A DNA stretch of 64,000 nucleotides from Crateriforma spongiae (GTDB lineage: Bacteria > Planctomycetota > Planctomycetia > Pirellulales > Pirellulaceae), in contig NZ_JAAXMS010000003.1 of assembly GCF_012290005.1 (NCBI RefSeq), positions 682,001 to 746,000 of the forward strand. Reading direction: 5' to 3'. The position numbers were made by a program, and so were the translations under genes. Positions 40,173 through 59,500 of this stretch are shown here, one piece after another (positions within the stretch are counted from its first letter, which is position 1; every line of letters begins with the position of its first letter). Under the pieces are notes generated by a model. That model was not told the origin of the DNA and searched no databases. It saw only the letters and a list, made by a program, of their open reading frames with translations.

Positions 40173-40187
40173 GTTGAATTACTTGGC

Positions 40188-42515
40188 CTACAACTTTTCG
40201 ACTTTGTCGGCACACTTCAGCATCGACGGGCCGTAGTACGGATTGCGAACTGCATCGTCGGACTGAATCCAAGATGCACCACGTCCCTCAAACGCCATCG
40301 GGCAATGCAGTTCGTAAAGAGCCGCGTCGGTGGGAAGGCCGAACATCCGCTCCAGGCTCAGCATCTGCTCAGACAGCAACGCGAATCCGCTCCGCAAGGC
40401 GGCGAGGTCGCTTGCTTTCTGCATTCTTGCGACGATCTCGGACAAGTCGCGTTTCTCTTTGTTCCACATTTCGACCGCTTTGGACTCAGAGACGATCGGC
40501 AGCAATGAAGCCAATCGCTGATGCAACGGCTCGACGGCTTGCTTCGCACCCTCCAGATCGTCGGCCGCGAGCGCCTTACCAAGTCCCAAATAAGGACCGA
40601 CAAAGCCGTCTAATTGCTGGGTCACTTCTGGCGGAGCATCCATGTTCGCCATCGCTGGCATCTGCATTTCATCGTGAGACATCGGCAACGGGAATTGCGT
40701 CTTCATTTGATCGACGTGCTGGCGAGTCAACGCGAACACCCGATCGGCTTCACGCATGGAATTGGTCTCACGGCCTTCGGTGACGTCGTTCCGCAATAAC
40801 ATCGCAATCTCGAACCATTGCGGTCGCATGTCGGGGCCGATCAAGTCTGCTGGCAACGCCTCGACCGCTTTACCCAGTTCGTCGTAGCCGGCACGAATCT
40901 CTGCGAGGTTCGCTGCTTCGACCTTTTCTTGAATCGTTTTGTATTGCTCAACAATGCCTTGCATCGCATCACGTACCGCTGGCACCAACTCCATCGGACT
41001 CGCGTTCATCGTGACACCTTCGTCTGCCTTTGGCATTTCCATACCGCCGTGGTTGTGTCCACCGCCGCCGCCACCTTGAGGTGTCATCATCGAGGGCTTC
41101 GCAGAAATCTGCAGCGCACTGTCGAGCTTGAAGTTTCCGTTGGTCACAACGAGGTCGCCTTCGTTGAGACCGGACTTCACCAGATAGAATTCACCTGCTC
41201 GCGGACCGATCACAATCTCCCGACCTTCATAAGTCGGCTTGTCTGCGTCGGGAATCTGAACGTAGACGATCGCTCGTGTGCCGGTTAGCAACACCGCTGA
41301 CGTCGGTACGATCAACGGCTTCGCAGCATCGGTCGGTTCCGCAGTGACATAGCCCAATGATTCGGCCCGTACCAATGGCATCCCGCAAATGTCGCAGTCG
41401 CCCGGTTGATCTTTCACGATCTCGGGATGCATCGGGCTGATCCACTTTCCAGCTAACGACGCATCAAGCACTCGGCCGCCCGCCGCGACGTTGCTCTTCA
41501 CGATCGCCCGCACGAACATCTCCGGCTTCAGTCGGCCGTCATCGTTGCTGACGTTCACGCGAACCTTCACTGTTCGCGTATCTTCGTTCAACACCGGGTC
41601 GATGAACGCGATGCGTCCGTGAAAAACCTCGCCCGGATAAGCTTCGGTCGTGAACTCGACGTCTTGCCCGTATCGCAACCAAGCTAGGTCCGATTCGTAA
41701 GCATCCATTTGAACCCACAAGTGGTTCAAATCAGCGACAGTGTAGATGCGGTCGCCGGTCTGTACGCGATCACCTTCTTGTTTCAACTTGCCGACGACCA
41801 CGCCGCCGACCGGCGAATAGATCGTTACGGTTTCGGATGACTTACCACGTTGCTCGATTGTCTGAATCTGTTCTGGCGTCAGTCCCAGCAACCGCAATTT
41901 CTCGCGAGCGGATTCGGCAAGATCGAGTGGTTCGATGAAACGCGATGAGCTTTGCGGCCGGTCCCGCCGAGTGGCGGCAAGCAACTCTTCCTGTGCGGTG
42001 TAGAGTGCCTCGCTGTAGATTTGCACCATGTGGTCGCCCTTGTTGACTTCGACGCCCGTATAGTCAACGAACATGCGTTCGAGCCTGCCGGGAACCCAAG
42101 CCGTGATGTGGGCAAGTCGTGTTTCGTCGTACTCGATCTTGCCCACCATCCGAACATCGGCCGTCACGTATTGCCGACGCACGGGGCTGACCTGAACGTT
42201 CATTAGGCTCTTGATCTCAGAGCTGATCGAAACGGTGCGAACACCGTCGGCCGATTCTCTGACCGGAACCAAGTCCATCCCGCAGATCGGACAACTGCCC
42301 GGACCATCGCGACGGATTTGCGGATGCATCGAACAAGTCCAAATCGACGGTTTCCCTTGCATGGCCTCCGAATTCGACGTACCGGAATTCGAGGACACAT
42401 TCGGCTCATCCGAGCCGCCGCCAAACCAAGAAGCGACGAAGACACCGAGCAGCACAAACGCCACCGCTTGTGCAATCCAGAGTTTCCCGCGGTGTTGTTT
42501 GAAGAATTCGTTCAT
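40188..42515 (-). CDS. cusB: CusB-like adaptor with two metal-binding domains and DUF3347 tail (system D)
   Basis: A 775-residue membrane-fusion protein. A single N-terminal helix (about 10-30) is followed by a first heavy-metal-binding domain (WTCSMHP...CPICGMDLV, about 58-84). The hairpin/barrel core comes next, with a second such domain (WISPMHP...CDICGMPLV, about 356-381), a His-rich linker (GGGGGGHNHGGMEMP, near 490), and two DUF3347-like helical segments. The end, CPMAFEGRGASWIQ...NPYYGPSMLKC, matches the usual DUF3347 close. Domain order is the same as in adaptor A. It lies between the anti-sigma-like gene (10 bases) and the permease gene (15 bases), clearly one operon. Confidence 0.91.
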   Translation of the reverse strand: MNEFFKQHRGKLWIAQAVAFVLLGVFVASWFGGGSDEPNVSSNSGTSNSEAMQGKPSIWTCSMHPQIRRDGPGSCPICGMDLVPVRESADGVRTVSISSEIKSLMNVQVSPVRRQYVTADVRMVGKIEYDETRLAHITAWVPGRLERMFVDYTGVEVNKGDHMVQIYSEALYTAQEELLAATRRDRPQSSSRFIEPLDLAESAREKLRLLGLTPEQIQTIEQRGKSSETVTIYSPVGGVVVGKLKQEGDRVQTGDRIYTVADLNHLWVQMDAYESDLAWLRYGQDVEFTTEAYPGEVFHGRIAFIDPVLNEDTRTVKVRVNVSNDDGRLKPEMFVRAIVKSNVAAGGRVLDASLAGKWISPMHPEIVKDQPGDCDICGMPLVRAESLGYVTAEPTDAAKPLIVPTSAVLLTGTRAIVYVQIPDADKPTYEGREIVIGPRAGEFYLVKSGLNEGDLVVTNGNFKLDSALQISAKPSMMTPQGGGGGGHNHGGMEMPKADEGVTMNASPMELVPAVRDAMQGIVEQYKTIQEKVEAANLAEIRAGYDELGKAVEALPADLIGPDMRPQWFEIAMLLRNDVTEGRETNSMREADRVFALTRQHVDQMKTQFPLPMSHDEMQMPAMANMDAPPEVTQQLDGFVGPYLGLGKALAADDLEGAKQAVEPLHQRLASLLPIVSESKAVEMWNKEKRDLSEIVARMQKASDLAALRSGFALLSEQMLSLERMFGLPTDAALYELHCPMAFEGRGASWIQSDDAVRNPYYGPSMLKCADKVEKL

Positions 42516-42524
42516 GAGTTCGCT

Positions 42525-43436
42525 TTAGGATTTGTCTAACCAGGTCACCAGCTTCGCCACTTCATCTTGGTCGCGAACACCGACGGCGGTGACGCTTCGA
42601 GTGCCTTGCTTCCAAGTTGCCGCGATGCTGGAATCGAGATCGACGAGGCAGCAATCTTTGTCGCCGCACGTTGCCATGCTTTGGCGGCGATCGCCAAACC
42701 AAGCCGTCTCTTCGTCGTCGTGTTCAAATAGAACCAACGTCGAACCGTCGTTGCGTTTGCAAACCGCCTTTACGCACGTGCAACAAGGCATTTTCAAGAC
42801 GCTGGTTGATGCCAACGAATATCCCTCGGGCAATCCGCCCGAGACGATCGGTCGATAGCCGACCAACTTAACTGCTCCGTCCGCGTCGACTTTCTCACCG
42901 TCGTACTTGGTAAGCAGCATTCGTTCCGCTGCGTCTGGATCGCTGGGCAGCTTCTGCAAGTATTCGTCCATCACGCCAGCGAACTCGACCATGTGTTCGG
43001 CTGACATCTCACCATCAGGCGAATGTCCATCGGTGCCGTGCGTCGCCATCGCACCACTGCTGGCCATGTTGTGATTGTTGCCGCCGCCGTACCACAGACC
43101 TGCACCCAATAGAACCAAAACGGACGCGGCCATCGACACCAGCCCCGCGCCATACGGCGACTCGCGAATCCAAACGCTAAACCGTCGCGACAGTGTCACC
43201 GGCTCAACGGCCGTCGGCAATTCACGCTCAATTCGCTGCCACAGACTAGACGGCTTTGCTGGGATGGGCGTTTGAGCGAAATTCGACCCGATTGACCTGA
43301 ACGAACTCAGCTCTGCCGCACACGATTCGCATGACTCAACGTGTTTCGCCACCGTTGCCGCTCGTCCAGCCGCAAGCTCGCCGTCGTGATAAGCCGACAG
43401 GTCTGGCTGCACAGTTTTGCAATCGTTGGTTGACAT
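42525..43436 (-). CDS. Anti-sigma-like membrane protein with Cys-rich outer domain
   Basis: A 303-residue protein. The N-terminus is a cytoplasmic zinc-finger anti-sigma domain (H17, H32, C36, C39 in HDGEL...HVESCESC). One membrane helix (about 98-118) follows, then a His/Met-rich segment (NNHNMASSGAMATHGTDGH). The periplasmic part carries KMPCCTCVKAVC and TCGDKDCC. The outer part could bind copper or zinc and so free a bound sigma factor, as CnrX/CnrY do for nickel, but no sigma gene is next to it. It is the first gene of the system D operon. The ATG at 43436 is chosen because the upstream frame is not protein-like. Confidence 0.78.
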   Translation of the reverse strand: MSTNDCKTVQPDLSAYHDGELAAGRAATVAKHVESCESCAAELSSFRSIGSNFAQTPIPAKPSSLWQRIERELPTAVEPVTLSRRFSVWIRESPYGAGLVSMAASVLVLLGAGLWYGGGNNHNMASSGAMATHGTDGHSPDGEMSAEHMVEFAGVMDEYLQKLPSDPDAAERMLLTKYDGEKVDADGAVKLVGYRPIVSGGLPEGYSLASTSVLKMPCCTCVKAVCKRNDGSTLVLFEHDDEETAWFGDRRQSMATCGDKDCCLVDLDSSIAATWKQGTRSVTAVGVRDQDEVAKLVTWLDKS

Positions 43437-43622
43437 AACCCACTCATTCTCTGGGAGACGCTTCTGCTGATGTGTTTTTGATGCCCGAAGTACGTGTTTA
43501 TTCACGCATTTCAGTGAATTTGCAGAATTCTTTCCGCACGGCGTGAAGAAAGCGACCGCCCAAGTATCCAAATGCACGTCAATCGAAAAATTCGCCCTCC
43601 TCATCCGCGAAGGCAAAACCCC

Positions 43623-44045
43623 ATGCGACTCACGAAATTCATCCCGTTTCTACTCGGCGGGTTGCTCATTCTCGGCATTTTCGGCTGCAACTCGCCCGAA
43701 TCCGATCCTGTGACGCCACCCGCGACTCCCGCCAGCGACACGGCCGAGGACCACGCAGACCATGACCATGGCGACCACGCCGATCACGATCACGGCGACC
43801 ACGCCACCGCAGATTCCGATTCGCCAATGGCCAAGATGATGGCGGGCTTGAAAGAGCTATCGCCGGAAGATCACAAGTCCGCCATGGCCCAACACATGTG
43901 CCCCGTCAGCGGCGAGATGCTTGGAACGATGGGAGCCCCTGAAAAGGTCGATGTGAACGGCAAGTCAGTGTGGATTTGCTGCGACGGCTGCAAAGACAAG
44001 CTGCTCGCCGACCCAGACAAGTACCTCGCCAAGTTGAATCAGTAG
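43623..44045 (+). CDS. His-rich lipoprotein with one YHS/TRASH-like module
   Basis: A 140-residue lipoprotein (lipobox GIFGC, C22). A His/Asp tract (EDHADHDHGDHADHDHGDH, about 43-61) precedes one CPVSGEMLGTMG...WICCDGC module ending DPDKYLAKL. The His tract and CC-x-x-C cluster both suggest metal capture at the membrane surface. It starts a two-gene plus-strand unit with the protein at 44095 and is divergent from the system D operon. The ATG at 43623 starts the signal sequence. Confidence 0.78.
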   Translation: MRLTKFIPFLLGGLLILGIFGCNSPESDPVTPPATPASDTAEDHADHDHGDHADHDHGDHATADSDSPMAKMMAGLKELSPEDHKSAMAQHMCPVSGEMLGTMGAPEKVDVNGKSVWICCDGCKDKLLADPDKYLAKLNQ

Positions 44046-44094
44046 CCCCACGTTCATCACCCTGTACCATCACTATTTTCAAAGAACTATTTCA

Positions 44095-44973
44095 ATGAAA
44101 CTTCGCATTCTCACTGCAATTGTCGCGGCCACACTGTTCGCGTCGCCCCAACTCGCGACCGCGCAGGACGTCCACTCCGGACACGACCACGCTGGGCACA
44201 GTCACGCCACTGCGGCAACTGGCCCGCACGGTGGCACTGTGCAAACCGTTGGCGACCGCCGCGTTGAAACCGTGATCGCCGACAAAGGCATCATGTTCAT
44301 GATCCTTGGCAAGAACGACCAACCGATCGCCCCGCCCGACGCGACCGGCACACTGAAACTGCGAGTCGGCGACAGCGAAAAGGAATACGCCTACGAACTC
44401 AAAACGCTCAAAAACCTAGCAATCGGCGTCGGCATCGACCTGTCTAAAGTCGTCGATCGACCGTTGCACATCAACGTCGAGATCACCAACATCGGAAGCC
44501 AGCCTCTGGTCTTCCATGCGATGGGCAAACTCGCCAGCGGTAAGCTCTCTGACGAACTCCTCATCAGCCTTCAAGCCACGTGCCCCGTCAGCGGCCAACC
44601 GCTCGGCAGCATGGGCAAGCCACCCAAGATCACAATCGGTGACAAGTCACTCTTCGTCTGCTGTGCGGGCTGCACGAAGAAAGTCGAAGCCTCACCCGAC
44701 CAGTACCTCACCAAGTACTACACCGCCAAAGGCGAACAAGTCCGCGAGGGCGTTTTCAAATCGACGCTTGCCGATGCTGCCGCAATCGCCGCACAGAAAA
44801 CCTGTCCCGTGATGGACGAACCGCTGGGCGGCATGGGCGTCCCAGGCAAGGTCAATGTCAATGGAAAAGCTGTCTACATCTGCTGCCCCGGCTGTGCCAA
44901 AAAGTTGGTCGCCGAACCAGACAAATACCTAGCCGCCCTCAAAGCCAAGGGAATCACGCCACCGGCGTTCTAA
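44095..44973 (+). CDS. Secreted protein with two YHS/TRASH-like modules
   Basis: A 292-residue exported protein: signal peptide (1-23), His-rich start (HSGHDHAGHSHATAATGPHGG), a beta-rich domain (about 45-155) and two modules. These are TCPVSGQPLGSMG...VCCAGC (about 162-203) and TCPVMDEPLGGMG...ICCPGC (about 238-282). It is a shorter relative of the four-module protein at 5908, with the same domain order. Its stop lies only eight bases before the end of the first integrase cassette, so the metal island and the mobile cassette meet here directly. Confidence 0.82.
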   Translation: MKLRILTAIVAATLFASPQLATAQDVHSGHDHAGHSHATAATGPHGGTVQTVGDRRVETVIADKGIMFMILGKNDQPIAPPDATGTLKLRVGDSEKEYAYELKTLKNLAIGVGIDLSKVVDRPLHINVEITNIGSQPLVFHAMGKLASGKLSDELLISLQATCPVSGQPLGSMGKPPKITIGDKSLFVCCAGCTKKVEASPDQYLTKYYTAKGEQVREGVFKSTLADAAAIAAQKTCPVMDEPLGGMGVPGKVNVNGKAVYICCPGCAKKLVAEPDKYLAALKAKGITPPAF

Positions 44974-44981: not shown

Positions 44982-45398
44982 TCAAACATCTTTCGCCGCC
45001 GGACCGACTGAGCGAATCAGATCGCTCCACATTTCACGCTGCTTGACCCAACACAGTTGCTTCGTGATCGGACGCAAGTTCCTTTCGTGAATTTTGGAAC
45101 GCCCCGTCATTTCGCGGGGCAGGTAGAGCAACGCTTCTTGGATCTCGGGGGCGAGCAGTGATAGGCTCAGAATTTGAGTGAGACGGGGCTGCGAGACTTT
45201 GCCCAACTCGGCAAGTTCGATCGTGTCCTGTGCCTCGCCACGCCGCAGCATCTCGTCCATACGAATCGCGAGCGCCATCAAGCGAGAAATCCTGGGAACC
45301 TTTCCGCGCCTTTTCACCGGCGGTTCGTCGGCCGATTCCGCCTTCTTCTTGGCGGGTTTCTTCAGGTTCACGTTGACCTTACATTTGACCGTAATCAT
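44982..45398 (-). CDS. HTH protein of integrase cassette 1
   Basis: A 138-residue basic protein with a ParB/KorB-like helix-turn-helix (about 58-82, TIELAELGKVSQPRLTQILSLSLL). Both ends are basic. The N-terminus starts MITVKCKVNVNLK, a strand also seen in its paralogue at 51098. Its start overlaps the end of the recombinase gene by ATGA. In both cassettes it is the last gene, so it could guide the recombinase to sites, set its direction, or repress the cassette. Function is inferred from fold and position. Confidence 0.75.
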   Translation of the reverse strand: MITVKCKVNVNLKKPAKKKAESADEPPVKRRGKVPRISRLMALAIRMDEMLRRGEAQDTIELAELGKVSQPRLTQILSLSLLAPEIQEALLYLPREMTGRSKIHERNLRPITKQLCWVKQREMWSDLIRSVGPAAKDV

Positions 45399-46969
45399 GA
45401 ATTCGTCTCCTGTTGTTGTTCGGTCGCTTCGGCGGAAAAGGCTTTGATGCCCGCCGGGTGCATCGAAATCGAAAGCGAGCTTTCGTCTGCGTCGAATTCA
45501 ATCCGACTGATCAGCAACGTCAGCACCGCCGACTTCTCGCGAGTGTTCAGCTCATTCCAGACGTTGCCAAAATCTGCAAAGGCGGCGTTCACATCACGCT
45601 CGTCGATCTGTTCCGCAGTCAAACGTTCGATCTCGCCGTTAACGATTTCAAGCGACTCGATAATGCCGGCGACCTCCTGGTGCAATGCGGCCAATCGCTC
45701 TGAATCGCCAGACCCGGCATCCGTCGAATTGCTCACATGTTTCATCTGCTCGTGCTGGTGATTCAACCGTTGGGTGAGCTGCGTTCGTTGGGTAGTCAAC
45801 TCCGCCAACTCCGCTTCACAACGTTTGCTCGACTGTTCCAGCACATCGCGGCGCAAACCTGGATCATCCGCGATGCAGCGAATCTGGTCGACCACAGCGG
45901 CCTCGATATCAGCCGCTGGCAACGAGGGTGACGGACAATACTTCCGCCCGCGTTTGATTGCCGTCACACACGTGTAGTAGCGGTACACTTTCGACCGGCG
46001 GCGAGCGACGTTGTGAACCATTGAGTAGTTGCACGCCGGGCAATAGATCAAACCTTTCAACAACGCCTGATACTTGTTGACCAAGTGATTGCCGCCGCCG
46101 CGAGCGTGACTACGCATCATCGCCGCGACATCGTCGAACAACTTCTGGTCAATGATCGGCGTGTGCTCACCCTTGAACGTCTGCGTCTTATGCTTGATCC
46201 GACCAATGTAGGTTTGGTTGGTCAACATTGTGTGCAGCGACGATTTATCAAACGGCTTGCCGCCTCTCGTCTTTCCCGATTTCGTTTTCCAAGACTTCAA
46301 GCACCATCCACGACGGTCAAGTTCTTCGACCACCGGCGTCATCGACTCCATCTCGAGGTACAAGCCAAAAATACGCCGCACCTTCGCCGCCTCGTCCGCG
46401 TTGACCACCAACTTCGGGCTTGGCCCGGATCGGTCGACGTCGTAGCCCAGCACCGGGATACCGCCTGCCCATTTACCACGCCGTCGCTGAGCCGCGATCT
46501 TGTCGCGAATCCGCTCGCCGATGATCTCTCGCTCGAATTGTGCGAACGAAAGAAGAATATTCAACGTCAACCGACCCATCGAGTGCGTCGTATTGAACTG
46601 CTGCGTCACCGAAACGAACGACACGCCATGGTTGTCGAACGTTTCCATGATCTTCGAGAAGTCCAGCAAGCTACGACTCAATCGGTCGACCTTATACACG
46701 ACCACGCAATCAATCTTGCCCGCCGCGATATCCTCCAGCAATCGTTTCATCGCGGGCCGGTCAACGTTGCCGCCCGAGTAGCCGCCATCGTCGTACCTCG
46801 TCGAAATGACCTTCCAGCCCTCTTGCGATTGACTGGCGATGAAGTTCTCGCCGGCTTCACGCTGGGCGTCCAACGAATTGAATTCTTGATCGAGTCCTTC
46901 CTCAGTCGACTTACGAGTGTAAATCGCGCACCGAATGATCCGCCGTTCAGATTCCGTTTTCTTTTTCAT
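45395..46969 (-). CDS. Large serine recombinase, cassette 1
   Basis: A 524-residue site-specific recombinase. The N-terminal resolvase domain (about 12-165) has the catalytic Ser in YTRKS (S21), and the YKVDRLSRS and GRLTLNILLSFAQFEREIIGERIRDK signatures. The recombinase domain (about 180-285), a zinc ribbon (CPAC...YRYYTC...YC, about 308-345) and a coiled coil (about 370-440) follow. Enzymes of this class integrate and excise phages and mobile elements at short att sites. It is flanked by 4-base overlaps with the DUF2924 and HTH genes. It aligns along its length with the recombinase at 49533, but many positions differ, so the duplication is old or the two came from different elements. Confidence 0.93.
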   Translation of the reverse strand: MKKKTESERRIIRCAIYTRKSTEEGLDQEFNSLDAQREAGENFIASQSQEGWKVISTRYDDGGYSGGNVDRPAMKRLLEDIAAGKIDCVVVYKVDRLSRSLLDFSKIMETFDNHGVSFVSVTQQFNTTHSMGRLTLNILLSFAQFEREIIGERIRDKIAAQRRRGKWAGGIPVLGYDVDRSGPSPKLVVNADEAAKVRRIFGLYLEMESMTPVVEELDRRGWCLKSWKTKSGKTRGGKPFDKSSLHTMLTNQTYIGRIKHKTQTFKGEHTPIIDQKLFDDVAAMMRSHARGGGNHLVNKYQALLKGLIYCPACNYSMVHNVARRRSKVYRYYTCVTAIKRGRKYCPSPSLPAADIEAAVVDQIRCIADDPGLRRDVLEQSSKRCEAELAELTTQRTQLTQRLNHQHEQMKHVSNSTDAGSGDSERLAALHQEVAGIIESLEIVNGEIERLTAEQIDERDVNAAFADFGNVWNELNTREKSAVLTLLISRIEFDADESSLSISMHPAGIKAFSAEATEQQQETNS

Positions 46970-47457
46970 TTCTGTCTCCTTCCGAGCCGAAAGAAGAGGA
47001 ATCCGTTGTAGCTGACCCCGGTGATCTCGCCAGCGACTTTCGACAACGAACGAAACCGTTTGCCCTCGTACTCAAATCCGTCCGTCAATACGAGCACCCG
47101 AACCATCTGGCCCTTGTATCGCCGCTCCAGAAAGCTGCCCGGCGGTGGCAAGCGAGGATCCCAGTCGACGTACCCATCTTCCTCCGGCGTGGCCCGACGA
47201 ACGTTGTCCAGAACTTCTTCGCGTGGAGCCGTCATACGAAGATCCGATGTTGCCGCCAACTCTCGAGCCTTCTGCTTCGCTTCGTTGCTCAGCCCGCCTT
47301 CGTCCAACGCTTGCAGCCGCCAAGCGATTCGTCGCACCAAATACTTCTTGTGGCGACTGCGACAAACTTCATCAAACACTTCTTCGTAGAGCGATCGCAG
47401 TTCATTGACTGTCTTGTCCTCAAGCGCGGCAACCGCCAGTCGAGTTTCATCCGTCAT
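46966..47457 (-). CDS. DUF2924 protein, cassette 1
   Basis: A 163-residue protein of the DUF2924 family, recognised by the helical VNELRSLYEEVFDE...YLVRRIAWRLQ segment (about 17-50). The C-terminal part has the pattern YKGQMVRVLVLTDGFEYEG...RFRSLSKVAGEITG...GFLFFRLG. Members usually sit beside large serine recombinases; no biochemical role is known to me. It overlaps the recombinase gene and microprotein b by 4 bases at each end, suggesting equal synthesis and perhaps a complex. Confidence 0.86.
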   Translation of the reverse strand: MTDETRLAVAALEDKTVNELRSLYEEVFDEVCRSRHKKYLVRRIAWRLQALDEGGLSNEAKQKARELAATSDLRMTAPREEVLDNVRRATPEEDGYVDWDPRLPPPGSFLERRYKGQMVRVLVLTDGFEYEGKRFRSLSKVAGEITGVSYNGFLFFRLGRRQK

Positions 47458-47666
47458 CGGCTCACCTCCGTGTTAGCTTGCTCCGTTTCGGAGACGATCG
47501 ACATATCATTTTTGTCGAGCGAATCGGAATCTTGTTCGACGTCAACTTGATTCGACTGGCGAGTGTAGATCGCACATTGCGTCGAAGATTGTTCTGCCTT
47601 GGTCCGGCATCGAGTCAATGCACGCGAAAGAATGGCAGCGATATTGCTGCGTCTTGCATCACTCAT
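47454..47666 (-). CDS. Microprotein b of cassette 1, contains a recombinase N-terminal fragment
   Basis: A 70-residue protein. Residues 5-21 (RRSNIAAILSRALTRCR) form a basic amphipathic helix shared with the 53-residue protein at 48893. Residues about 30-51 (QCAIYTRQSN...DSDSLD) match the start of the adjacent recombinase (RCAIYTRKST...EFNSLD), retaining YTRxS, and the DNA also aligns over about 70 bases. It overlaps the DUF2924 gene by 4 bases and microprotein a by 8. It may be a recombinase remnant fused to a small gene or a peptide that mimics the recombinase N-terminus. Confidence 0.55.
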   Translation of the reverse strand: MSDARRSNIAAILSRALTRCRTKAEQSSTQCAIYTRQSNQVDVEQDSDSLDKNDMSIVSETEQANTEVSR

Positions 47667-47919
47667 GAATGGGTACCTCTGTGAAAGAAGGAATGGATTC
47701 GGCCGCGGTCATCTGCCGCTCAGAAACCGCGTCCGTCACAGAGAGCCCTGGAAACCGACCCGCCTCAAGCCGTTTTCCCAAAGAGTCTTCAAGAGTTCCC
47801 GAAACAGCTTCCAGGCAAAACCGTTTCCATCGCCCCACACCGCGACCAAGCAACTCAGCCACAGCCCGTCGTCGCGCATCTGGCGACAACTCAGCCACAT
47901 CAAAATCCGACTTACCCAC
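47659..47919 (-). CDS. Microprotein a of cassette 1
   Basis: An 86-residue protein read from GTG 47919, which has AAAGGG six bases upstream (a TTG at 47958 would add 13 residues). It contains a basic helix (RRRAVAELLGRGVGRWKR) and the C-terminal words DSLxxRLE and LSVxxxVSxR. Both also appear, in the same order and spacing, in the protein at 48570 on the other side of the spacer. That conservation is the evidence that this is a real gene. It overlaps microprotein b by 8 bases (ATGAGTGA). No function is known. Confidence 0.6.
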   Translation of the reverse strand: MGKSDFDVAELSPDARRRAVAELLGRGVGRWKRFCLEAVSGTLEDSLGKRLEAGRFPGLSVTDAVSERQMTAAESIPSFTEVPIHE

Positions 47920-48171
47920 ACGCAACCCTTTGAAAGAACGACAAGCAACCGGGAGCAACCAAACGCTCCCTCCCCGGTTACCTATGCCGTCCTACCGTTC
48001 GCCTGCGCGCCAAAGTAGAATTCAAGCCAATCAAAAAAATATTCACCCCACCAAGGAACGGTAACGAACAAACCGATCCCCGAGATCGAGCAATTCCTAA
48101 GAGAAAATCACTACATAATCTGCCAAGTGTTCTGACCAACGGTTAGAATCCCACAAGAGTTTGAAAACCGC

Positions 48172-48268
48172 CGGTCGCCCACAACTTCTCTGTTCGGTTG
48201 GGAAACTGACCGTCAGGGGTAAACTCCGAAAGCCGGCGTTTTGCTATTCGCGAAACGCCGGCTTTTTT
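48172..48268 (+). ncRNA. Possible small RNA ending at an intrinsic terminator
   Basis: A two-part stem (CGGTC 48172-48176 with GACCG 48208-48212; CCCA 48178-48181 with TGGG 48199-48202) is followed 16 bases later by a strong terminator on the plus strand. No plus-strand gene ends here, so the terminator may close a small RNA starting near 48120, where TACATAAT could serve as a -10 region. The -35 region is poor. Offered as a candidate only. Confidence 0.3.
48229..48268 (+). terminator. Strong Rho-independent terminator in the cassette spacer
   Basis: AAAGCCGGCGTTT (48229-48241) pairs perfectly with 48253-48265 across an 11-nt loop, and six T follow from 48263. The T-tract favours plus-strand transcripts. 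It insulates the two divergent cassettes or ends a small RNA. Confidence 0.85.
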
Positions 48269-48534
48269 CGTGGTTTCGCGGCGTTCTGCTGTTTTCTCGG
48301 ACTCTCTGGTGAGAGAGTTTGGGTCGGCTGGATCTTGGGGCTGGCGGTGATTTTTTGGCCAGATCGGGCCGAGACTCTCAGAGCTCTCTGGGTGATGGCG
48401 GAGACCGGGTTTTGAGGCTGAGGTTATTCGCTCTTCGGCCCACTCGGGATCTCTTTTCGGCACCTGTTCCGGCTCGGTCGGTCAGAGCCAATTCGGAATT
48501 TTTTGCTTTCGGGTGATGCGCGCACGTTCGGCCC

Positions 48535-48555
48535 AATCGCATAGCTAAGAAAGGG
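48535..48555 (+). promoter_or_regulatory. 21-bp repeat before cassette 2 (copy 1)
   Basis: ATCGCATAGCTAAGAAAGGG (48536-48555, with one more matching A before it) is repeated exactly at 54987-55007. In both places a GC-rich hairpin-forming stretch follows directly and an operon begins shortly after. This suggests a shared leader or promoter element of the mobile module. Confidence 0.6.
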
Positions 48556-48569
48556 AGGCCGCCGGCGGG

Positions 48570-48884
48570 GTGGCCCCAGTTCTGACTGCGATTGATTGGG
48601 GTGTCGTTATTTCTGATTCGGTTGATTTGGGTGCGAGCAGAACGAAGGCCGAGCTAGCCCGGTTTCGTTCGGTCGCGGCAATCTTGGCCCGTGCCGTCGG
48701 GCGTGTTCGGCGTGCGGCGGATGTGTCGCCGGATGGAACGCCTGTTTCTGAAAATTCGGGCGACTCTCTACCCGAGCGGCTTGAGATCGCCGGCGAACCA
48801 CCGCTCTCTGTGTCTCACGAAGTCTCCGACCGCGCTGGTGGGGACCAAAGTTCGATTGAACCGAGACACGGAGAGACAAATTGA
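48570..48884 (+). CDS. Microprotein a of cassette 2
   Basis: Up to 104 residues from GTG 48570; the true start may be further in, since the homology with the counterpart at 47659 begins only near residue 17. The shared features are the basic helix RFRSVAAILARAVGRVRR and the words DSLxxRLE and LSVxxxVSxR in the C-terminal half. The next gene begins eight bases after its stop. Conservation across two divergent cassettes is the main evidence for coding. No function is known; the basic helix may touch DNA or the recombinase. Confidence 0.55.
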   Translation: MAPVLTAIDWGVVISDSVDLGASRTKAELARFRSVAAILARAVGRVRRAADVSPDGTPVSENSGDSLPERLEIAGEPPLSVSHEVSDRAGGDQSSIEPRHGETN

Positions 48885-48892
48885 AAAACGAG

Positions 48893-49054
48893 ATGCGATA
48901 CCAAATGATCGCTGCTTTACTGGCCAAATCGCTGCGACGACGTAAGCCGTGGGTGGGCGAGGCCGTTTACCCGAAGAACGAAAGTGAGCAGTCGGGTGAT
49001 GACCGTCGAGCAGAGACATCCGAGATGACGGAAAAGATCGGAGGTGAACGATGA
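48893..49054 (+). CDS. Microprotein b of cassette 2 (53 residues)
   Basis: A short gene whose ATG at 48893 begins MRYQMIAALLAKSLRRRK, the same basic helix as microprotein b of cassette 1 (RRSNIAAILSRALTRCR). The rest is charged and probably disordered. Its TGA overlaps the ATG of the DUF2924 gene (ATGA at 49051-49054), the same junction as in cassette 1, which argues that it is real. It lacks the recombinase-like fragment found in its counterpart. Confidence 0.55.
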   Translation: MRYQMIAALLAKSLRRRKPWVGEAVYPKNESEQSGDDRRAETSEMTEKIGGER

Positions 49055-49536
49055 CACCGAAAATTGCCGCGGAAGTCCATCGGTTGCCGGACATGACAGT
49101 CAACGAATTGGTGAAGCGATACGAGCAGGTGTATCGCGAAGAATGTCGTAGTCGCAACAAGCAATATCTGATCCGACGCATCGCGTGGAAACTGCAAGCG
49201 AACGAAGAAGGCGGAGTGACGGCCGAGATGCTCTCGAAAGCGGAAGGCTTGGCGGCCGACGCCCAGACCCGTGTAACTGCACCGCGGGAAAACCGCAACG
49301 TTCAAGTCACACCACGACAGGCCAGTGCATTCGTGGACTGGGATCCTCGATTGCCTCCGCCCGGTCAATGGCTCGAGCGGCAGTACAAAGGCCGCATGAT
49401 CAAAGTCGCCGTGTTGCAAGAAGGCTTTGAATACGAAGGCGAGCGGTATCGCTCGTTGACCGCGGTGGCGAAGAAGGTCACCGGCACACACACCAACGGC
49501 TTTTTGTTCTTTCGACTGGGGAGGCGTGAATCGTGA
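49051..49536 (+). CDS. DUF2924 protein, cassette 2
   Basis: A 161-residue DUF2924 protein, paralogue of that at 46966. It shares the helical TVNELVKRYEQVYREECRSRNKQYLIRRIAWKLQ region (about 14-47) and the C-terminal YKGRMIKVAVLQEGFEYEG...RYRSLTAVAKKVTG...GFLFFRLG pattern. The ATG at 49051 has GGAGG seven bases upstream (GATCGGAGGTGAACG), and the gene overlaps the recombinase gene by GTGA. It presumably works with the recombinase, but no activity is known to me. Confidence 0.87.
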   Translation: MTPKIAAEVHRLPDMTVNELVKRYEQVYREECRSRNKQYLIRRIAWKLQANEEGGVTAEMLSKAEGLAADAQTRVTAPRENRNVQVTPRQASAFVDWDPRLPPPGQWLERQYKGRMIKVAVLQEGFEYEGERYRSLTAVAKKVTGTHTNGFLFFRLGRRES

Positions 49537-51101
49537 TCGCGAGCAAGACGACATCGACGCCAACGATTCGTTGTGCCATCTACACCCGCAAGTCGACCGA
49601 CGAGGGATTGGATCAGGAATTCAATTCGCTTGATGCTCAACGGGCCGCGGCCGAATCATTCATTCGCAGCCAAGCCGAAGAGGGTTGGGTGGCGATCGAG
49701 GACCGCTACGATGACGGCGGCTTCTCCGGCGGAAACATAGACCGGCCCGCTTTCCAGCGATTGCTTGAAGACATCGAAGACGGAAAGGTCGACTGCGTGG
49801 TGGTCTACAAGGTCGACCGGCTGAGTCGGTCTTTGATGGACTTTTCGCGGGTGATGGAAACGTTCGACAAGTACGGAGTGTCGTTCGTATCGGTCACACA
49901 GCAATTCAATACGACGCATTCGATGGGGCGACTGACGCTAAACATTCTGCTGTCATTCGCACAGTTCGAACGAGAAATTATCGGCGAACGCATCCGCGAC
50001 AAACTGGCCGCGAACTGCCGGCGTGGGCAGTGGACGGGCGGGTATCCGGTGCTTGGCTACGACGTCGACCGAACTCAGCGGCCACCACGATTGGTCATCA
50101 ACGCAGAGGAAGCGGTTCGCGTTCGCCGAATCTTTGCGATGTACTTGGAATTGAAATCGTTGCTCGCCGTGGCGGAGGAACTCAACAGGCTGCGCTGGTG
50201 CAACAAAGTCTGGCGAACCAAGAAAGGCGACGAAAAAGGCGGCCGTGAATTCAACACAGGCAGCGTTCACACGATGCTTACGAACCCGATCTACATCGGA
50301 CGCATCAAACACAAGTCCGAAACGTACGCTGGGCAGCATGAAGCGATCGTCGACGAAGCGATCTTCGAGCAAGTTCAATCGCAACTGCGGGCGAATCAAA
50401 GCAATCGGTCCAGTCGCCTGCCGTCCAAGAACGGCGGTTTATTGAAGGGCATCATTCGGTGTCCGCAATGCAATCTGGCGATGGTCCACAACGTCTCTCG
50501 GCGGAAGTCCAGAAGCTACCGCTACTACACGTGCGTCGGAGCCATCAAACGTGGTCGGAAATCTTGTCAGCATCCGTCACTGCCGGCCGCGGAGATTGAG
50601 AACGCGGTGATTGAACAAGTCGCTTGCATTGCCGGCGACGCAGATTTGCGTAGCGAGGTCGTACGGCAATCGCAGGAAGCGGTAAAGCTGCAACGCGCTG
50701 AGTTTGATATGCAACGCCAGCAACTCAAACGGCAACTTTCGCGAGACCATGCCGAGGTGCGACGATTGTCGACGAACGAAACCATCAGTTCCATCACGAC
50801 GATCCGTTTGGCCGAGTTGCATGAACGCATCGAAAGGTCCGAACGAAAACTCCGCAACGTGGGCAAGCGTCTTCAGGAGATTGACTCGGGCGTGTTGTGC
50901 GAAAGTGATGTCGACAACGCCTTCGCCGACTTCGACGGTCTTTGGCAAAACCTTTCGATTCGTGAACAAGCCGAGGTGCTGCAACTGTTGATCGCAAAAG
51001 TCGAATTCGATCAGAGCGATTGCACGATCGAAATTTCGTATCACGCCAGCGGTATCGCGGCATTGGAATCACTCAACGATGAACCGGAGACCGTCGCTTG
51101 A
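49533..51101 (+). CDS. Large serine recombinase, cassette 2
   Basis: A 522-residue recombinase starting with GTG. It has the same domains as the one at 45395: resolvase domain with catalytic S21 in YTRKS and YKVDRLSRSLMDFSRVMETFD, a recombinase domain with VLGYDVDRT and the NPIYIGRIKHKS segment, a zinc ribbon (CPQC...YRYYTC...SC), and a coiled coil (about 365-435). It is the better candidate integrase for the replication module to its right, because both are transcribed the same way. It overlaps its neighbours by GTGA and TTGA. Confidence 0.93.
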   Translation: MIASKTTSTPTIRCAIYTRKSTDEGLDQEFNSLDAQRAAAESFIRSQAEEGWVAIEDRYDDGGFSGGNIDRPAFQRLLEDIEDGKVDCVVVYKVDRLSRSLMDFSRVMETFDKYGVSFVSVTQQFNTTHSMGRLTLNILLSFAQFEREIIGERIRDKLAANCRRGQWTGGYPVLGYDVDRTQRPPRLVINAEEAVRVRRIFAMYLELKSLLAVAEELNRLRWCNKVWRTKKGDEKGGREFNTGSVHTMLTNPIYIGRIKHKSETYAGQHEAIVDEAIFEQVQSQLRANQSNRSSRLPSKNGGLLKGIIRCPQCNLAMVHNVSRRKSRSYRYYTCVGAIKRGRKSCQHPSLPAAEIENAVIEQVACIAGDADLRSEVVRQSQEAVKLQRAEFDMQRQQLKRQLSRDHAEVRRLSTNETISSITTIRLAELHERIERSERKLRNVGKRLQEIDSGVLCESDVDNAFADFDGLWQNLSIREQAEVLQLLIAKVEFDQSDCTIEISYHASGIAALESLNDEPETVA

Positions 51102-51541
51102 TCAAAGTCAAAACGAAACTGAACGTCGACATCAAGGCTCGCGGTCGAAAAGTCATCTCGTCAGTAACCGAGGTCGACATGGAAGACGACCGCCCGGTGC
51201 GTCCGAAGCTACATCGCGTGACGAAACTGATGGCGTTAGCGATCCAGTTTCAGGAGAAGCTGCGTCGCGAAGAGGCTCGCGATTTGACCGATCTGGCTCG
51301 GATGGGAAACGTCAGTCAGCCGCGGATGAGCCAGATCATGGGCCTGAACTTGCTGGCTCCCGACATTCAACGGGCATTGCTCGACTTGCCGCCGCAAGGT
51401 CCGGGCAAACCGTTTTTGCACGAGAAACGCATCCGGCCGATCACTGCCATCTTGGATTGGGAAGAGCAGCGGCGGGCTTGGCAGGAACTGCTGCGACAGA
51501 AAGAGGACTTCGAGAACCGACGATCTGTCGCCGCGGGATAG
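51098..51541 (+). CDS. HTH protein of integrase cassette 2
   Basis: A 147-residue basic protein with a TTG start that overlaps the recombinase stop (TTGA). The helix-turn-helix (about 62-87, DLTDLARMGNVSQPRMSQIMGLNLL) and the flanking RVTKLMALAIQFQEKLRR and KRIRPITAIL segments are shared with the protein at 44982. ParB-like HTH proteins bind short palindromes; a perfect 14-bp palindrome lies 190 bases downstream (51731). Its role in recombination or regulation is inferred. Confidence 0.76.
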   Translation: MIKVKTKLNVDIKARGRKVISSVTEVDMEDDRPVRPKLHRVTKLMALAIQFQEKLRREEARDLTDLARMGNVSQPRMSQIMGLNLLAPDIQRALLDLPPQGPGKPFLHEKRIRPITAILDWEEQRRAWQELLRQKEDFENRRSVAAG

Positions 51542-54174: not shown

Positions 54175-54284
54175 AGCAATTCTTGCTGCGGACACGCTTT
54201 GTCGTGTTCGGACAAAAGTTGTCTCGCCACGTTCTCGGCTGAGAGGACGTGAACTGCGTGTCTCGCCGTCGCCTGTGCGTTTTT

Positions 54285-54299
54285 GCGATTCGGAATCGC
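54285..54299. promoter_or_regulatory. 15-bp palindrome before the sigma-like gene
   Basis: GCGATTC-G-GAATCGC is a perfect 7+1+7 palindrome 40 bases upstream of the chosen start of the sigma-like gene. Several GACA/TGTC half-sites surround it. A repressor operator is plausible but unproved. Confidence 0.35.
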
Positions 54300-54338
54300 G
54301 ACACAGTTCTGTCTGCGACGGCGATTGTGACAACGGTC

Positions 54339-54962
54339 ATGCCTTGCCTCCGGCCGGAGGATATTCGCTTGACCATTCAAGACACGCACCCCGAACTGTT
54401 CGACCACGCGGTTCAAATGGGCCGCCGCGTCGCGTCGCTGATCGAGTTTCGGCCCGAATTCAACGGCAAGATAACGAAGGAGGATCTGGAGCAAGAGTTC
54501 ATGCTGCACATCCTCGAGCATCTCGATCAATTCGACGAACGTCGCGGAAGCCACGAGGTGTTCGTCAACCTGTTGATTCGCAACTGCACGGCCAAACTGG
54601 TGCGTCAGGCAAATCGCAAGAAGTGCAAACCGCCCGCGGGAACCGTTGTCGAATCGACGGGCGACGTGGTCGAAACCGGCGACGGGACTCACGAAGAGCT
54701 ATTCCGCATGCTCGGCATCGAAGACAAGGATCGACGAACGTTGGGTGAGACCAGTGATGTTTTCGAGCTTCACGACATGAGTGAAAGCGTCGAGCATCTC
54801 ATCCGCACGTTGCCGCGTGGTTACAGGGCGATTGCACGCAAATTGAAGACGTCCAGCCAAGCCGAAGTCGCTCGGGATCTGGGGATTTCGAATCGCCGAG
54901 TGACCGAAGCGGTGAAGGTGATCCGCGAACACTTCGGGAAAGCCGATTGGCTCGAGAACTAA
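54339..54962 (+). CDS. Sigma-70-like factor of the mobile module
   Basis: A 207-residue protein with a region-2-like part (KEDLEQEFMLHILEHLDQFD...FVNLLIRNCTAKLVRQ, about 42-90) and a C-terminal HTH (SQAEVARDLGISNRRVTEAVKVIREHF, about 172-198). It is more divergent than the two ECF factors in the window and resembles sigma-like proteins coded by phages and integrative elements. It probably turns on later genes of this module. Region 2 is not perfect, so a non-sigma DNA-binding role is possible. The ATG at 54339 is preferred because a palindrome lies in the upstream extension. Confidence 0.72.
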   Translation: MPCLRPEDIRLTIQDTHPELFDHAVQMGRRVASLIEFRPEFNGKITKEDLEQEFMLHILEHLDQFDERRGSHEVFVNLLIRNCTAKLVRQANRKKCKPPAGTVVESTGDVVETGDGTHEELFRMLGIEDKDRRTLGETSDVFELHDMSESVEHLIRTLPRGYRAIARKLKTSSQAEVARDLGISNRRVTEAVKVIREHFGKADWLEN

Positions 54963-54986
54963 TTTTCTCGGGATGCCAACGCGACG

Positions 54987-55007
54987 AATCGCATAGCTAA
55001 GAAAGGG
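54987..55007 (+). promoter_or_regulatory. 21-bp repeat before the replication genes (copy 2)
   Basis: An exact copy of the repeat at 48535-48555. Here it runs into a hairpin with nine pairs and one bulged G (55006-55015 with 55024-55032, GGGCGGGCAT against ATGCCGCCC). The first gene of the replication operon starts 50 bases later. Confidence 0.6.
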
Positions 55008-55057
55008 GCGGGCATCGGTTTGCATGCCGCCCGAAACACTTAGCCGCGGGAGTCAAC

Positions 55058-55291
55058 GTGACGGTCTTGGGTCTTGATCGACGAGTCGGAATCTCATTGG
55101 CCGTTGGACGCTATCTGCGTTCGGCCGAACGCTTCAACGATGCATCCCGCGATTTCACTGGAGCGTGCCGTTCGCTTCGCAAACAACTCGGACCGGACCA
55201 ACGCTTCGTTGTCCAAATCGACTTCAAGTACTACCTCGTGACCAGCGATCGCGACGGCAACTTCGACATCGAACACGTTCCTTCCATTTAA
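55058..55291 (+). CDS. Small protein heading the replication operon, unknown
   Basis: A 77-residue protein starting with GTG. It has a helical, basic middle (GRYLRSAERFNDASRDFTGACRSLRKQL) and two C-terminal strands (FVVQIDFKYYLVTSDRDGNFDIEHV). No domain is recognised. It is 34 bases before the AAA_24 gene, which has AAGGAG before its start, so both are likely in one transcript. Its place after the 21-bp repeat and hairpin suggests an early gene of the module. Confidence 0.6.
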   Translation: MTVLGLDRRVGISLAVGRYLRSAERFNDASRDFTGACRSLRKQLGPDQRFVVQIDFKYYLVTSDRDGNFDIEHVPSI

Positions 55292-55325
55292 CCCAACCAC
55301 CCATCACCAAGGAGTCATCCAACCA

Positions 55326-56087
55326 ATGACCAACTTACTGCAAACCATTCAGTCCGGCCGGCAATCCAAGCCGCCTCGCGTGTTGCTTTACGGCATCGAG
55401 GGCATCGGCAAGTCGACGTTCGGCAGCCAAGCCCCAAAGCCGGTGTTCATTCAAACCGAAGACGGGCTCGACGAGATCGACTGCGATCGTTTTCCGCTGG
55501 CCGGCGCACTTAACGATGTGATGGCGGCACTGATAACGCTGCGGGATGAAAAGCACGACTACCAAAGCGTGGTCATCGATTCGCTCGATTGGATGGAACG
55601 GCTGATCTGGGACAAGTTGTGCCAGCAGTACGGCGTCGAGTCGATCGAGAAAGTCGACGGCGGATACGCCCGCGGCTACACGCACGCTTTGTCGTTGTGG
55701 CGTGAGGTGCTCGACATTCTGAACGTGCTGCGATCACGCGGCATGGTCGTGGTGTTGATCGCTCATTCGAAGGTCGAACGCTTCGAGGATCCGGAGTCGT
55801 CGCCCTACGACCGATACTCACCGCGGCTTCACAAACACGCCGCGGCGCTCGTCAAGGAATGGACCGACGCGGTTTTGTTCGCCACCCGGAAGCTGAGGAC
55901 TCAGACGGAAGACGGAGGCTTCAACCGCAAACGCACCATCGCTCACGCGGTCGGCAAAGACGGCGGCGAACGCGTCATCCGTGCTTACGGCTCGCCATCC
56001 TGTGTCGCCAAGAACCGCTACGGCATCAGCGAAGAATTGCCGCTGTCGTGGTCCGCGTTCGTGTCGGCGATCACGTCGAACAACTGA
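55326..56087 (+). CDS. AAA_24/Sak4-like phage ATPase
   Basis: A 253-residue nucleotide-binding protein. The Walker A loop is GIEGIGKST (23-31), Walker B is SVVIDSLDW (near 82), and the family pattern VFIQTEDGLDEI and HAAALVKEWTDAVLFAT is present. AAA_24 proteins include the RecA-like Sak4 single-strand annealing proteins of phages, which load onto DNA with a partner ssDNA-binding protein. The next gene codes for a DUF669 protein of that partner kind, which supports a recombination or replication role. GGAG stands upstream of the ATG. Confidence 0.86.
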   Translation: MTNLLQTIQSGRQSKPPRVLLYGIEGIGKSTFGSQAPKPVFIQTEDGLDEIDCDRFPLAGALNDVMAALITLRDEKHDYQSVVIDSLDWMERLIWDKLCQQYGVESIEKVDGGYARGYTHALSLWREVLDILNVLRSRGMVVVLIAHSKVERFEDPESSPYDRYSPRLHKHAAALVKEWTDAVLFATRKLRTQTEDGGFNRKRTIAHAVGKDGGERVIRAYGSPSCVAKNRYGISEELPLSWSAFVSAITSNN

Positions 56088-56136
56088 TTCATTCCAACCC
56101 GTTTTTGTATTCAACCTTTGACCCAAGGAACCAACC

Positions 56137-56631
56137 ATGGCCAACCTGAACGGCTTTGATGCCAACACCGTCGAACCCGCCAACGACCTCGAACCGCTGC
56201 CCGTCGGCAGATACGTCGCCGTCATCACCGACAGCGAAATGAAGCCGACCAAGTCGGGTGCTGGGAATTATCTCCAGCTCACGTTTCAGGTAATCGAAGG
56301 CCCTCACGCCAACAGGCTCCTGTGGGTGCGATTGAACCTCGACAACCCGAACGCGACCGCCGTCGAGATCGCTCGTCGCGAGTTGTCGTCGATCTGCCGA
56401 GCGGTCGGCGTGCTGACTCCATCCGATTCGGCCGATCTGCACAACTTGCCGTGCGTGATCCACGTGAAGGTGAAGAAACGCAGCGACACCGGCGAGTTGC
56501 AAAACGAAGTGAAGGGGTATTCCCGGCGTGACGCCTCGGCCGCACCGATCGCGGCTTCCGAGATGTCGTCCACCGACGCCGATTCTTCGCCGGCCGCTGC
56601 CGGCACGGATACCCCACCTTGGCAGCGATAG
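56137..56631 (+). CDS. DUF669 protein, likely ssDNA-binding
   Basis: A 164-residue DUF669 protein with the typical LPVGRYVAVITDSEMKPTKSGAGNYLQLTFQVIEG strands (about 25-60) and an RRELSSICRAVGVL helix. DUF669 genes regularly accompany Sak-type annealing proteins in phages and are thought to be OB-fold ssDNA-binding proteins. The C-terminal 40 residues are Ser/Ala/Pro-rich and end TPPWQR; acidic residues before that end recall the flexible tail of SSB. AAGGA stands before the start. A strong terminator follows, so transcription may drop here. Confidence 0.84.
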   Translation: MANLNGFDANTVEPANDLEPLPVGRYVAVITDSEMKPTKSGAGNYLQLTFQVIEGPHANRLLWVRLNLDNPNATAVEIARRELSSICRAVGVLTPSDSADLHNLPCVIHVKVKKRSDTGELQNEVKGYSRRDASAAPIAASEMSSTDADSSPAAAGTDTPPWQR

Positions 56632-56663
56632 TCGCGACCTCTTCTTGATTCGCACCAAGGCCC

Positions 56664-56707
56664 AACGCCCGGCTGGCAACGGAATGCCGGCCGGGCGTTT
56701 TCTTTTT
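56664..56707 (+). terminator. Strong Rho-independent terminator inside the replication module
   Basis: AACGCCCGGCTGGCA (56664-56678) pairs with TGCCGGCCGGGCGTT (56685-56699) over 15 positions with one G-T wobble and a 6-nt loop, then TTTTCTTTTT. It separates the AAA_24/DUF669 genes from rusA and the helicase, which may therefore depend on read-through or another promoter. Confidence 0.85.
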
Positions 56708-56727
56708 CATCCACGACACGCCGTACC

Positions 56728-57270
56728 ATGTACAAACTCAGTCTGCCTTTTCCGCCGTCGGTCAACACATACTGGCGACACGTTGGCAACCGCGTGCTGG
56801 TCTCAAAGAAAGGCCGGCAATACCAAGCCGCGGTCAGTTCGCTGCTGAAACGCAAAAACGTCAAAACGCTCGACGGCGATCTGATCGTCGACATTCGTTT
56901 AATCCCGCCGGACCGTCGTCGCCGCGATGTCGACAATTCGCTCAAAGCGTTACTCGACGCGATGCAGTACGGCGGAGCGTACGAGGACGACAGCCAAATC
57001 GTGCGTCTGACCGTGGAGAAGTTCGCACCGGAACCGAAACAAGAGCGTGCCGAAGTAGTGGTTCAGCGTGTGCCGGCACCCATCGGCAAAGCCGGCTTCC
57101 GCACATGCCTACGTTGCGACGAAGCGTTCGAAAGCGATGGCCCGGGCAACCGCATCTGTCTGCCGTGCCGTCAGATCAACGCGATGTTCAGTTGCCGAGT
57201 CGAAGACATACGTGGCAAGAAGCGGCACAACGGTAACGTCATCATCGAACGCGAGGAGGACCAGGTTTGA
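56728..57270 (+). CDS. rusA: RusA-family Holliday junction resolvase with C-terminal zinc ribbon
   Basis: A 180-residue resolvase. The catalytic set D67, D69, K73 and D88 has exactly the spacing of D70, D72, K76 and D91 in E. coli RusA, within RRRDVDNSLKALLDAMQ. It would cut four-way junctions during phage-type recombination or replication. Unlike ordinary RusA (about 120 residues) it continues with a Cys4 zinc ribbon (FRTCLRCDEAF...RICLPCRQIN, about 117-143) and a basic tail. Its end overlaps the helicase start by TTGA. Confidence 0.9.
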   Translation: MYKLSLPFPPSVNTYWRHVGNRVLVSKKGRQYQAAVSSLLKRKNVKTLDGDLIVDIRLIPPDRRRRDVDNSLKALLDAMQYGGAYEDDSQIVRLTVEKFAPEPKQERAEVVVQRVPAPIGKAGFRTCLRCDEAFESDGPGNRICLPCRQINAMFSCRVEDIRGKKRHNGNVIIEREEDQV

Positions 57271-59453: not shown

Positions 59454-59500
59454 TTCGTCCTCGCGTTTGTCTGCAATCAGAGTTCGAGAGCCTATCACTT

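Follow-up and report, generated by a model that had tools for sequence, protein, structure and literature searches.

A conserved microprotein, DUF2924, serine recombinase and helix-turn-helix module at the junction of two tandem elements in Crateriforma spongiae

In a 64,000-nucleotide stretch of the Crateriforma spongiae genome (contig NZ_JAAXMS010000003.1, positions 682,001 to 746,000; hereafter the window), two divergent gene cassettes stand back to back, at 44982-47958 on the minus strand and at 48570-51541 on the plus strand, each in the order microprotein a, microprotein b, DUF2924 protein, large serine recombinase and helix-turn-helix (HTH) protein. Why does such a gene order occur twice in mirror image, and do these products form one functional unit or simply accompany an integrase? 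Our results show that a module of the order microprotein, DUF2924, large serine recombinase and ParB-type HTH recurs in planctomycetes and in proteobacterial-phage-like contigs, and that the mirror image is the junction of tandem elements and not a duplication. Each cassette is probably the integration module of a temperate phage-type element, namely a serine-integrase module of several parts in which the partners guide integration and excision; we put this explanation as a whole at about three chances in four.

The five-gene order had been proposed in a preliminary description of this DNA, and the ten open reading frames (ORFs) are indeed in place. The spacer, given there as 650 bp, is shorter, the start codons of the two cassettes being 611 nt apart, and the short overlaps claimed for all but one or two junctions are real and extend, with the starts used, to all eight (4 nt in seven, 8 nt in one, ATGAGTGA). 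The paired genes had also been called homologous. Judged against the maxima from 300 shuffles per pair, this holds for DUF2924 (score 470, shuffle maximum 51), the recombinase (1551 and 65), the HTH protein (300 and 61) and microprotein a (84 and 44), but not for microprotein b, which scores 33, below the shuffle maximum of 39, and is assigned by position and family motif alone. At its tail, the left microprotein b (47454-47666) looks like the beginning of the recombinase (73, shuffle maximum 50), and L087, a relative in the genome G036, has such a tail too. Pfam recognizes DUF2924 in both copies, and both recombinases carry the Resolvase, Recombinase and zinc-ribbon domains in that order and above the cut-offs, which is the domain make-up of a large serine recombinase. 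Pfam gave no above-cut-off match for the window microproteins or HTH proteins, and NCBIfam none for any of the ten cassette proteins; its best recombinase match was CcrB, at 173.6 and 177.8 bits against a cut-off of 900, so that neither protein is a CcrB equivalog. In PHROGs, DUF2924 corresponds to phrog_11806 (unknown function), the HTH protein to phrog_14161 ('recombinase') and the left recombinase to the integrases of phrog_95. The window microproteins matched nothing there save one line at E 0.19 for the right b, and four more microproteins, including gp5 of the Acidithiobacillus phage AcaML1, gave nothing better than E 0.09 in PHROGs and nothing in Pfam. The microprotein thus appears to be without a family in the libraries searched (Pfam, NCBIfam and PHROGs). 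Rfam gave no match in 44000-55400; promoter-like sites numbered 2 (shuffle mean 2.5) and terminator-like sites 12 (mean 9.0, standard deviation 3.4).

The neighbourhoods of other DUF2924 genes bear on the question of a unit. The survey used DUF2924 as bait, so the HTH gene and the microprotein did not shape the sample. DUF2924 was present in 20 of 60 genomes (the one studied here included) and in 50 of 199 genomes of the phylum. The first, planctomycete, set trained the HTH and microprotein models. The second held 79 genome-contig loci, 68 viral-contig loci and 8 phage and plasmid records (only three of these passed the counting rules), with 140 distinct DUF2924 proteins. The third, with 96 distinct DUF2924 proteins mostly from viral contigs, is called proteobacterial-phage-like as it was found with AcaML1 and Bradyrhizobium queries; its HTH model and one of the microprotein models were built from the set itself. 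The alignment A1 was too divergent and was left unused for scanning. Counts refer to distinct DUF2924 matches of at least 100 residues in the first two sets or at least 90 in the third, and a recombinase was taken as intact when its match covered 1000 nt or more in a single frame and no less than 800 or 1000 nt lay beyond. Under these rules, an HTH gene follows the intact DUF2924-recombinase pair in 57 of 57 cases in planctomycete genomes, in 101 of 102 in the second set (genome contigs 43/44, viral contigs 56/56, others 2/2) and in 67 of 68 on proteobacterial-phage-like contigs. The exceptions have no separate HTH gene: the recombinase match of L212 ends at residue 430, and the HTH of L421 is fused. 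Broken recombinases were excluded from this count (8 in the first set, two of them with an HTH gene in reach, and 12 in the second, none with one). The neighbourhood test that the preliminary description had set was therefore passed, with the HTH next or fused, the microprotein mostly in front and the order fixed. Its idea of one unit of five products survives as a four-gene core in fixed order, the fifth gene being rare, and from this linkage we infer functional unity.

Recombinase and HTH share one open frame at 12 loci (L064, L110, L130, L185, L187, L192 and L420-L425), L423 containing just a recombinase piece, so that HTH and enzyme can be one protein. The fusion of L187 is annotated as a single coding sequence, gp31 of Wolbachia phage WO. 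Among the loci checked for fusions, none had DUF2924 and recombinase in one frame, and the recombinase-HTH fusions are the sole sign of physical association among the module products. In 55 of the 68 proteobacterial-phage-like loci two tandem HTH paralogues follow the recombinase (e.g. L186:6799-7652). The recombinase of L116 is reduced to scraps and that of L067 is broken and partly inverted: at L067:4936-7847 (G032:C86), its front half lies in reverse orientation between DUF2924 and the C-terminal part, and next to it is the degenerate N-terminus of a second recombinase.

The microprotein carries one motif near its start, LxPxxRxxExAxILAxGVLRL, and another near its end, CLEVPxETVLSV in planctomycetes and GLGFLPDQRVHTTP in AcaML1-like loci. 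It was found upstream of DUF2924 at 54 of 80 loci of the planctomycete training set with E<=0.01 (58 with E<=1), at 75 of 126 loci of the second set with E<=0.01 (100 with E<=1) and at 82 of 93 proteobacterial-phage-like loci, 39 of 93 being recovered by the planctomycete motif alone. Across 15 whole genomes, 24 of the 27 microprotein matches (E<=1e-3, among the candidates listed) lie within 650 nt upstream of DUF2924; two of the other three are orphans and one precedes a recombinase remnant. At this threshold and among the candidates listed, six genomes without DUF2924 had no microprotein, nor did G019, in which DUF2924 is present. Codon comparison of random samples of 40 and 60 microproteins, in which pairs are non-independent, gave pN<pS in 572 of 589 and in 84 of 85 pairs, indicating coding constraint at the protein level. 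Two microproteins occur at 7 of 80 planctomycete loci and at 0 of 126 loci of the second set, to which the right cassette of the window and, with a later model, G001:2074218 are added. On these counts we rejected microprotein b as a standard fifth member; where a second microprotein occurs, it is a duplication. In the tree, from which L014, L086 and L089 are absent, five recombinases of two-copy loci share a clade of six tips whose sixth tip, L073, has one microprotein. G001:2074218 has two copies but falls outside that clade, therefore the duplication happened more than once. A longer gene occupies the microprotein slot at L190 (DUF3489, Pfam E 1.8e-25), and those of L420, L423 and L424 look alike by eye.

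Structure models of the right copies suggest what the two other partners may be. In the DUF2924 model (predicted local distance difference test score, pLDDT, 83.7; predicted template modelling score, pTM, 0.41), the helical N-terminus matches 1zbh (Z 7.2), in a region which we take to be a SAP-type domain, and the N-terminus of Rho (5jji, Z 5.8). The C-terminus, residues 95-161, matches the RAMA fold of CcrM (6pbd, Z 6.4) and MPND (7ydw/7ydt, Z 6.0). The models thus show DUF2924 as a predicted SAP-like plus RAMA protein, and the second match agrees with a published remark that RAMA partly matches DUF2924 (PMC11342252). The HTH model (pLDDT 89.6, pTM 0.73) matches the DNA-binding domains of Noc and ParB, with Z up to 9.4 over 88 residues and a root-mean-square deviation of 2.4. 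Foldseek gave this likeness a probability of 1.00 at E 0.028, and no match at E<=0.001 for either model; by sequence it is weak (E 0.02), two of 51 members matching HTH_ParB. The HTH protein is hence modelled as a ParB/Noc-type DNA-binding domain. The ParB CTPase domain is absent: the protein has 147 residues, and its model shows two short strands before the DNA-binding domain.

The mirror image finds its explanation between the cassettes, where an 11-bp attachment core, CAACTTCTCTG, is repeated 102.7 kb to the left, where a tRNA-Met gene (C3:627363-627437) has its 3' end; the same is seen in G001, a genome of the same genus. The left element spans from this tRNA-Met 3' end to 48182, with CAACTTCTCTG at both ends, and the right element begins there. 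G001 is 98.5% identical to the window over 2274-48354, fully identical over 48000-48194 and abruptly divergent from 48195. The chromosome flanks of the two genomes share 90-94% identity, save one 3.5-kb stretch at 96.7%. The level of the flanks, or no relation at all, is also seen over C3:627437-650213, the leftmost stretch of the left element. In G036, which belongs to another genus of the same family, the left cassette has a relative that shares 91% identity over 45020-48187, after which homology ends. Since identity with G001 holds up to the core and then changes, and homology with G036 is lost inside the core, this is a junction of tandem elements; the earlier suggestion that one element had integrated beside another is well supported by these breaks and by the same core at tRNA-Met. 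The cassettes are divergent because the left module lies at the far end of its element, reading inwards, and the right module at the near end of its own. Of 60 genomes searched, the one studied here among them, three have the tRNA 3' end with the core (G000, G001 and G036, the last with one mismatch), and all three hold cassettes of the left clade. Three full-length DUF2924 genes are spread over 82 kb on the downstream side of the site in G036. Contig C12 has another core with a similar arm (153859, minus strand), which suggests a third element.

Under the favoured explanation, the recombinase would join attP to the tRNA-Met site, the HTH and SAP-RAMA proteins would contact DNA in or near the attachment arms, the microprotein would bind a protein partner, and the recombinase and its partners together would set the direction, integration or excision. 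Among the partners, the microprotein or the HTH protein would most likely be the recombination directionality factor; both are candidates by position and conservation, and the HTH also by fusion. In favour of the microprotein are its small size, its adjacent position, the conservation of both its ends and its near restriction to the module; in favour of the HTH are that no other partner is retained as faithfully and that it can form part of the enzyme. None of the families that Pfam, NCBIfam or PHROGs matched to the cassette partners bears the name of a directionality factor. A more detailed version, which we offer only tentatively, is a multi-subunit serine integrase with a catalytic recombinase, a ParB-type subunit, at times fused to it, organising the arms, a SAP-RAMA subunit that reads the state of the DNA and licenses integration, and the microprotein as a new, widespread family of directionality factors.

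Several observations weigh against the integrase-module explanation. What is shown is position, boundaries, core, composition, co-occurrence and recombinase-HTH fusions, and the roles of the partners are proposals. At 26 of 126 second-set loci no microprotein was found even at E<=1; the Wolbachia WO loci have none, and a DUF3489-type gene holds its position at some loci, so the microprotein is replaceable. Moreover, 6 of 76 planctomycete DUF2924 genes with room for a recombinase had none in the scan, L067 and L116 among them, and the Z-scores of 6-7 for the DUF2924 domains are moderate. G051 and G025, just outside the left clade, have no tRNA-core sequence, and a search with the exact 8-bp core did not find the right end of the right element.

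The closest known systems include phage large serine integrases that act together with a directionality factor, such as the SPbeta pair. The present elements resemble them in recombinase domains, prophage ends and a short core with unlike arms, and differ in that up to three partners are kept in fixed order; we know of no serine-integrase system with three conserved partners. The ccr recombinases of SCCmec form tandem arrays. They are likewise serine recombinases, and CcrB gave the best NCBIfam match, but the proteins described here fall far below its cut-off, and their elements have a tRNA-Met site and prophage contents. Int and gp3 of phiC31 are presented in PMC5814800 as a large serine integrase with its directionality factor. 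The order microprotein, DUF2924, recombinase and HTH is found again in AcaML1 (JX507079; gp5-gp4-gp3-gp2-gp1), whose record names gp3 and gp2 the large and small subunits of a site specific recombinase; it differs by a second HTH gene in place of the second microprotein and by another target gene. The AcaML1 ends carry 10-bp direct repeats, according to PMC3826726. In Wolbachia phage WO, DUF2924 adjoins the recombinase, a neighbourhood already in print in Wolbachia papers, and the ParB-type HTH forms the C-terminus of gp31; WO differs in this fusion, in having no microprotein and in the ankyrin genes upstream. Our searches of open-access PMC papers gave no account of the four-gene module or of the microprotein, and one may exist elsewhere. 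Serine integrases serve as tools of genome engineering, as a rule with no more than one partner. The widespread module described here conserves up to three, among them a microprotein family that has no name and a protein that is sometimes joined to the enzyme, and it supplies ready candidates for directionality factors. The locus is also an illustration of how prophages and metal-resistance cargo are stacked behind a single tRNA gene in planctomycete genomes.

The recombinase might instead act alone, with the HTH as repressor of the operon, DUF2924 as a reader of modified DNA that counters restriction or acts in the choice between lysis and lysogeny, and the microprotein as a leader peptide, so that the linkage would be regulatory. 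A ParB-type DNA-binding domain could be a repressor, the microprotein is, where found, the first gene, and RAMA domains are described as readers of modified bases in PMC12839542, a role qualified by the binding of MPND to DNA regardless of N6-methyladenine (6mA) reported in PMC9963953. We nevertheless consider this unlikely: a plain repressor predicts neither the retention of the HTH in almost every intact pair nor the one-frame loci, and the evolution of the microprotein is that of a protein, with conservation at both ends. Far less probable still is a role of the accessory genes in superinfection exclusion, defence or addiction, with the integrase carrying them along. The small gene and the HTH recall a toxin-antitoxin layout and G036 holds its three DUF2924 genes within 82 kb, but the recombinase-HTH fusions speak against it, and the window genes gave no above-cut-off toxin or antitoxin match in Pfam, NCBIfam or PHROGs (PADLOC was not run on them).

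The history of the two cassettes decides on the last possibility. In the trees, where the left cassette is represented by its identical copy L060 of G001, this copy groups with L087 and L088 of G036 (support 0.985 for the recombinase, 0.904 for DUF2924), and this clade then joins the right copy (0.997 and 0.955); the HTH tree is weaker, placing L073 beside the right copy at 0.14. An in-place inverted duplication of one cassette, which the mirror image and the homology of the larger genes might have suggested, can thus be dismissed, as the left copy pairs with those of another genus before the right one in both the recombinase and DUF2924 trees and the attachment core of the element junction sits between the cassettes. 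Protein distances correlate among recombinase, DUF2924 and HTH (0.76, 0.87 and 0.67 over 206 loci; permutation maxima <0.12), which fits joint inheritance of the integrase module, though shared descent alone also explains it and this weakens the point. The features of the locus are collected in the table.

Table. Features of the cassettes, their junction and the adjoining parts of the two elements (window coordinates)
Feature	Position	Strand	Evidence or remark
Left-element cargo, including metal-efflux-type, P-type ATPase and YHS-type proteins	1..44973		named from ORF reading alone
Left HTH gene	44982..45398	-	homologue of right copy, PHROG 14161; fold evidence from right copy
Left large serine recombinase, 524 aa	45395..46969	-	PF00239, PF07508, PF13408 above cut-off; phrog_95 integrase
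Left DUF2924 protein	46966..47457	-	PF11149 E 1.2e-37; fold evidence from right copy
Left microprotein b	47454..47666	-	microprotein-like start plus piece resembling recombinase N-terminus
Left microprotein a	47659..47958	-	regular family member, E 7.2e-16 (itself one of the model's 20 rows)
Right-end (cassette-side) attachment arm of left element	47959..48181		identical in G001 48000-48194; G036 homology stops at 48187, within the core
Attachment core CAACTTCTCTG, element junction	48182..48192	+	same 11 bp at tRNA-Met 3' end, C3:627434-627444
Left-end attachment arm and leader of right element	48193..48569		diverged relative in G001; inverted repeat 48229-48265
Right microprotein a	48570..48884	+	family match E 5.1e-11; homologue of left a
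Right microprotein b	48881..49054	+	position and motif only; pairwise score within shuffles
Right DUF2924 protein	49051..49536	+	PF11149 E 8.9e-40; SAP-like and RAMA folds predicted in model
Right large serine recombinase, 522 aa	49533..51101	+	PF00239, PF07508, PF13408 above cut-off
Right HTH gene	51098..51541	+	ParB/Noc-type DNA-binding domain predicted in model
Right prophage genes: sigma factor, Sak4-like annealing protein, SSB, RusA, helicase, primase	54249..61675	+	PHROGs

Past the window, the right element carries terminase, head protease/major head and tape measure genes, and thus has the terminase, head and tail genes of a prophage in one element; in the left element the terminase was checked. 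The left element has a related replication and structural block, followed by about 45 kb of cargo and then by the cassette reading back inwards. In G001 the right element is a remnant, with a microprotein-like ORF and then a C-terminal piece of the recombinase. Part of the left metal-efflux-type cargo has a counterpart of 72-77% similarity at C12:141540-151247 (G000), behind another attachment core. The right prophage contains three copies of a 21-nt sequence, CGCATAGCTAAGAAAGGGAGG, at 48538 (just before the cassette), at 54990 and at C3:755749, one of them with 2 mismatches, and a G036 locus (L075:674) has another, with 2 mismatches; one idea is that these repeats are promoters, given the sigma factor that the prophage encodes. 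Beyond the structural genes of the right prophage lies an array of 31 tRNA genes (C3:785075-793012, window coordinates 103075-111012; L155, L156), and downstream of it are ORFs resembling, by eye, TROVE/Ro60 and a KptA-type 2'-phosphotransferase. Defence-type genes lie near the end of contig C3 (L156:12182-15454 and L157:3179-9004); they encode a homologue of the DISARM protein DrmD (PADLOC E 3.8e-194) and a helicase resembling DruE of Druantia (E 2.6e-108).

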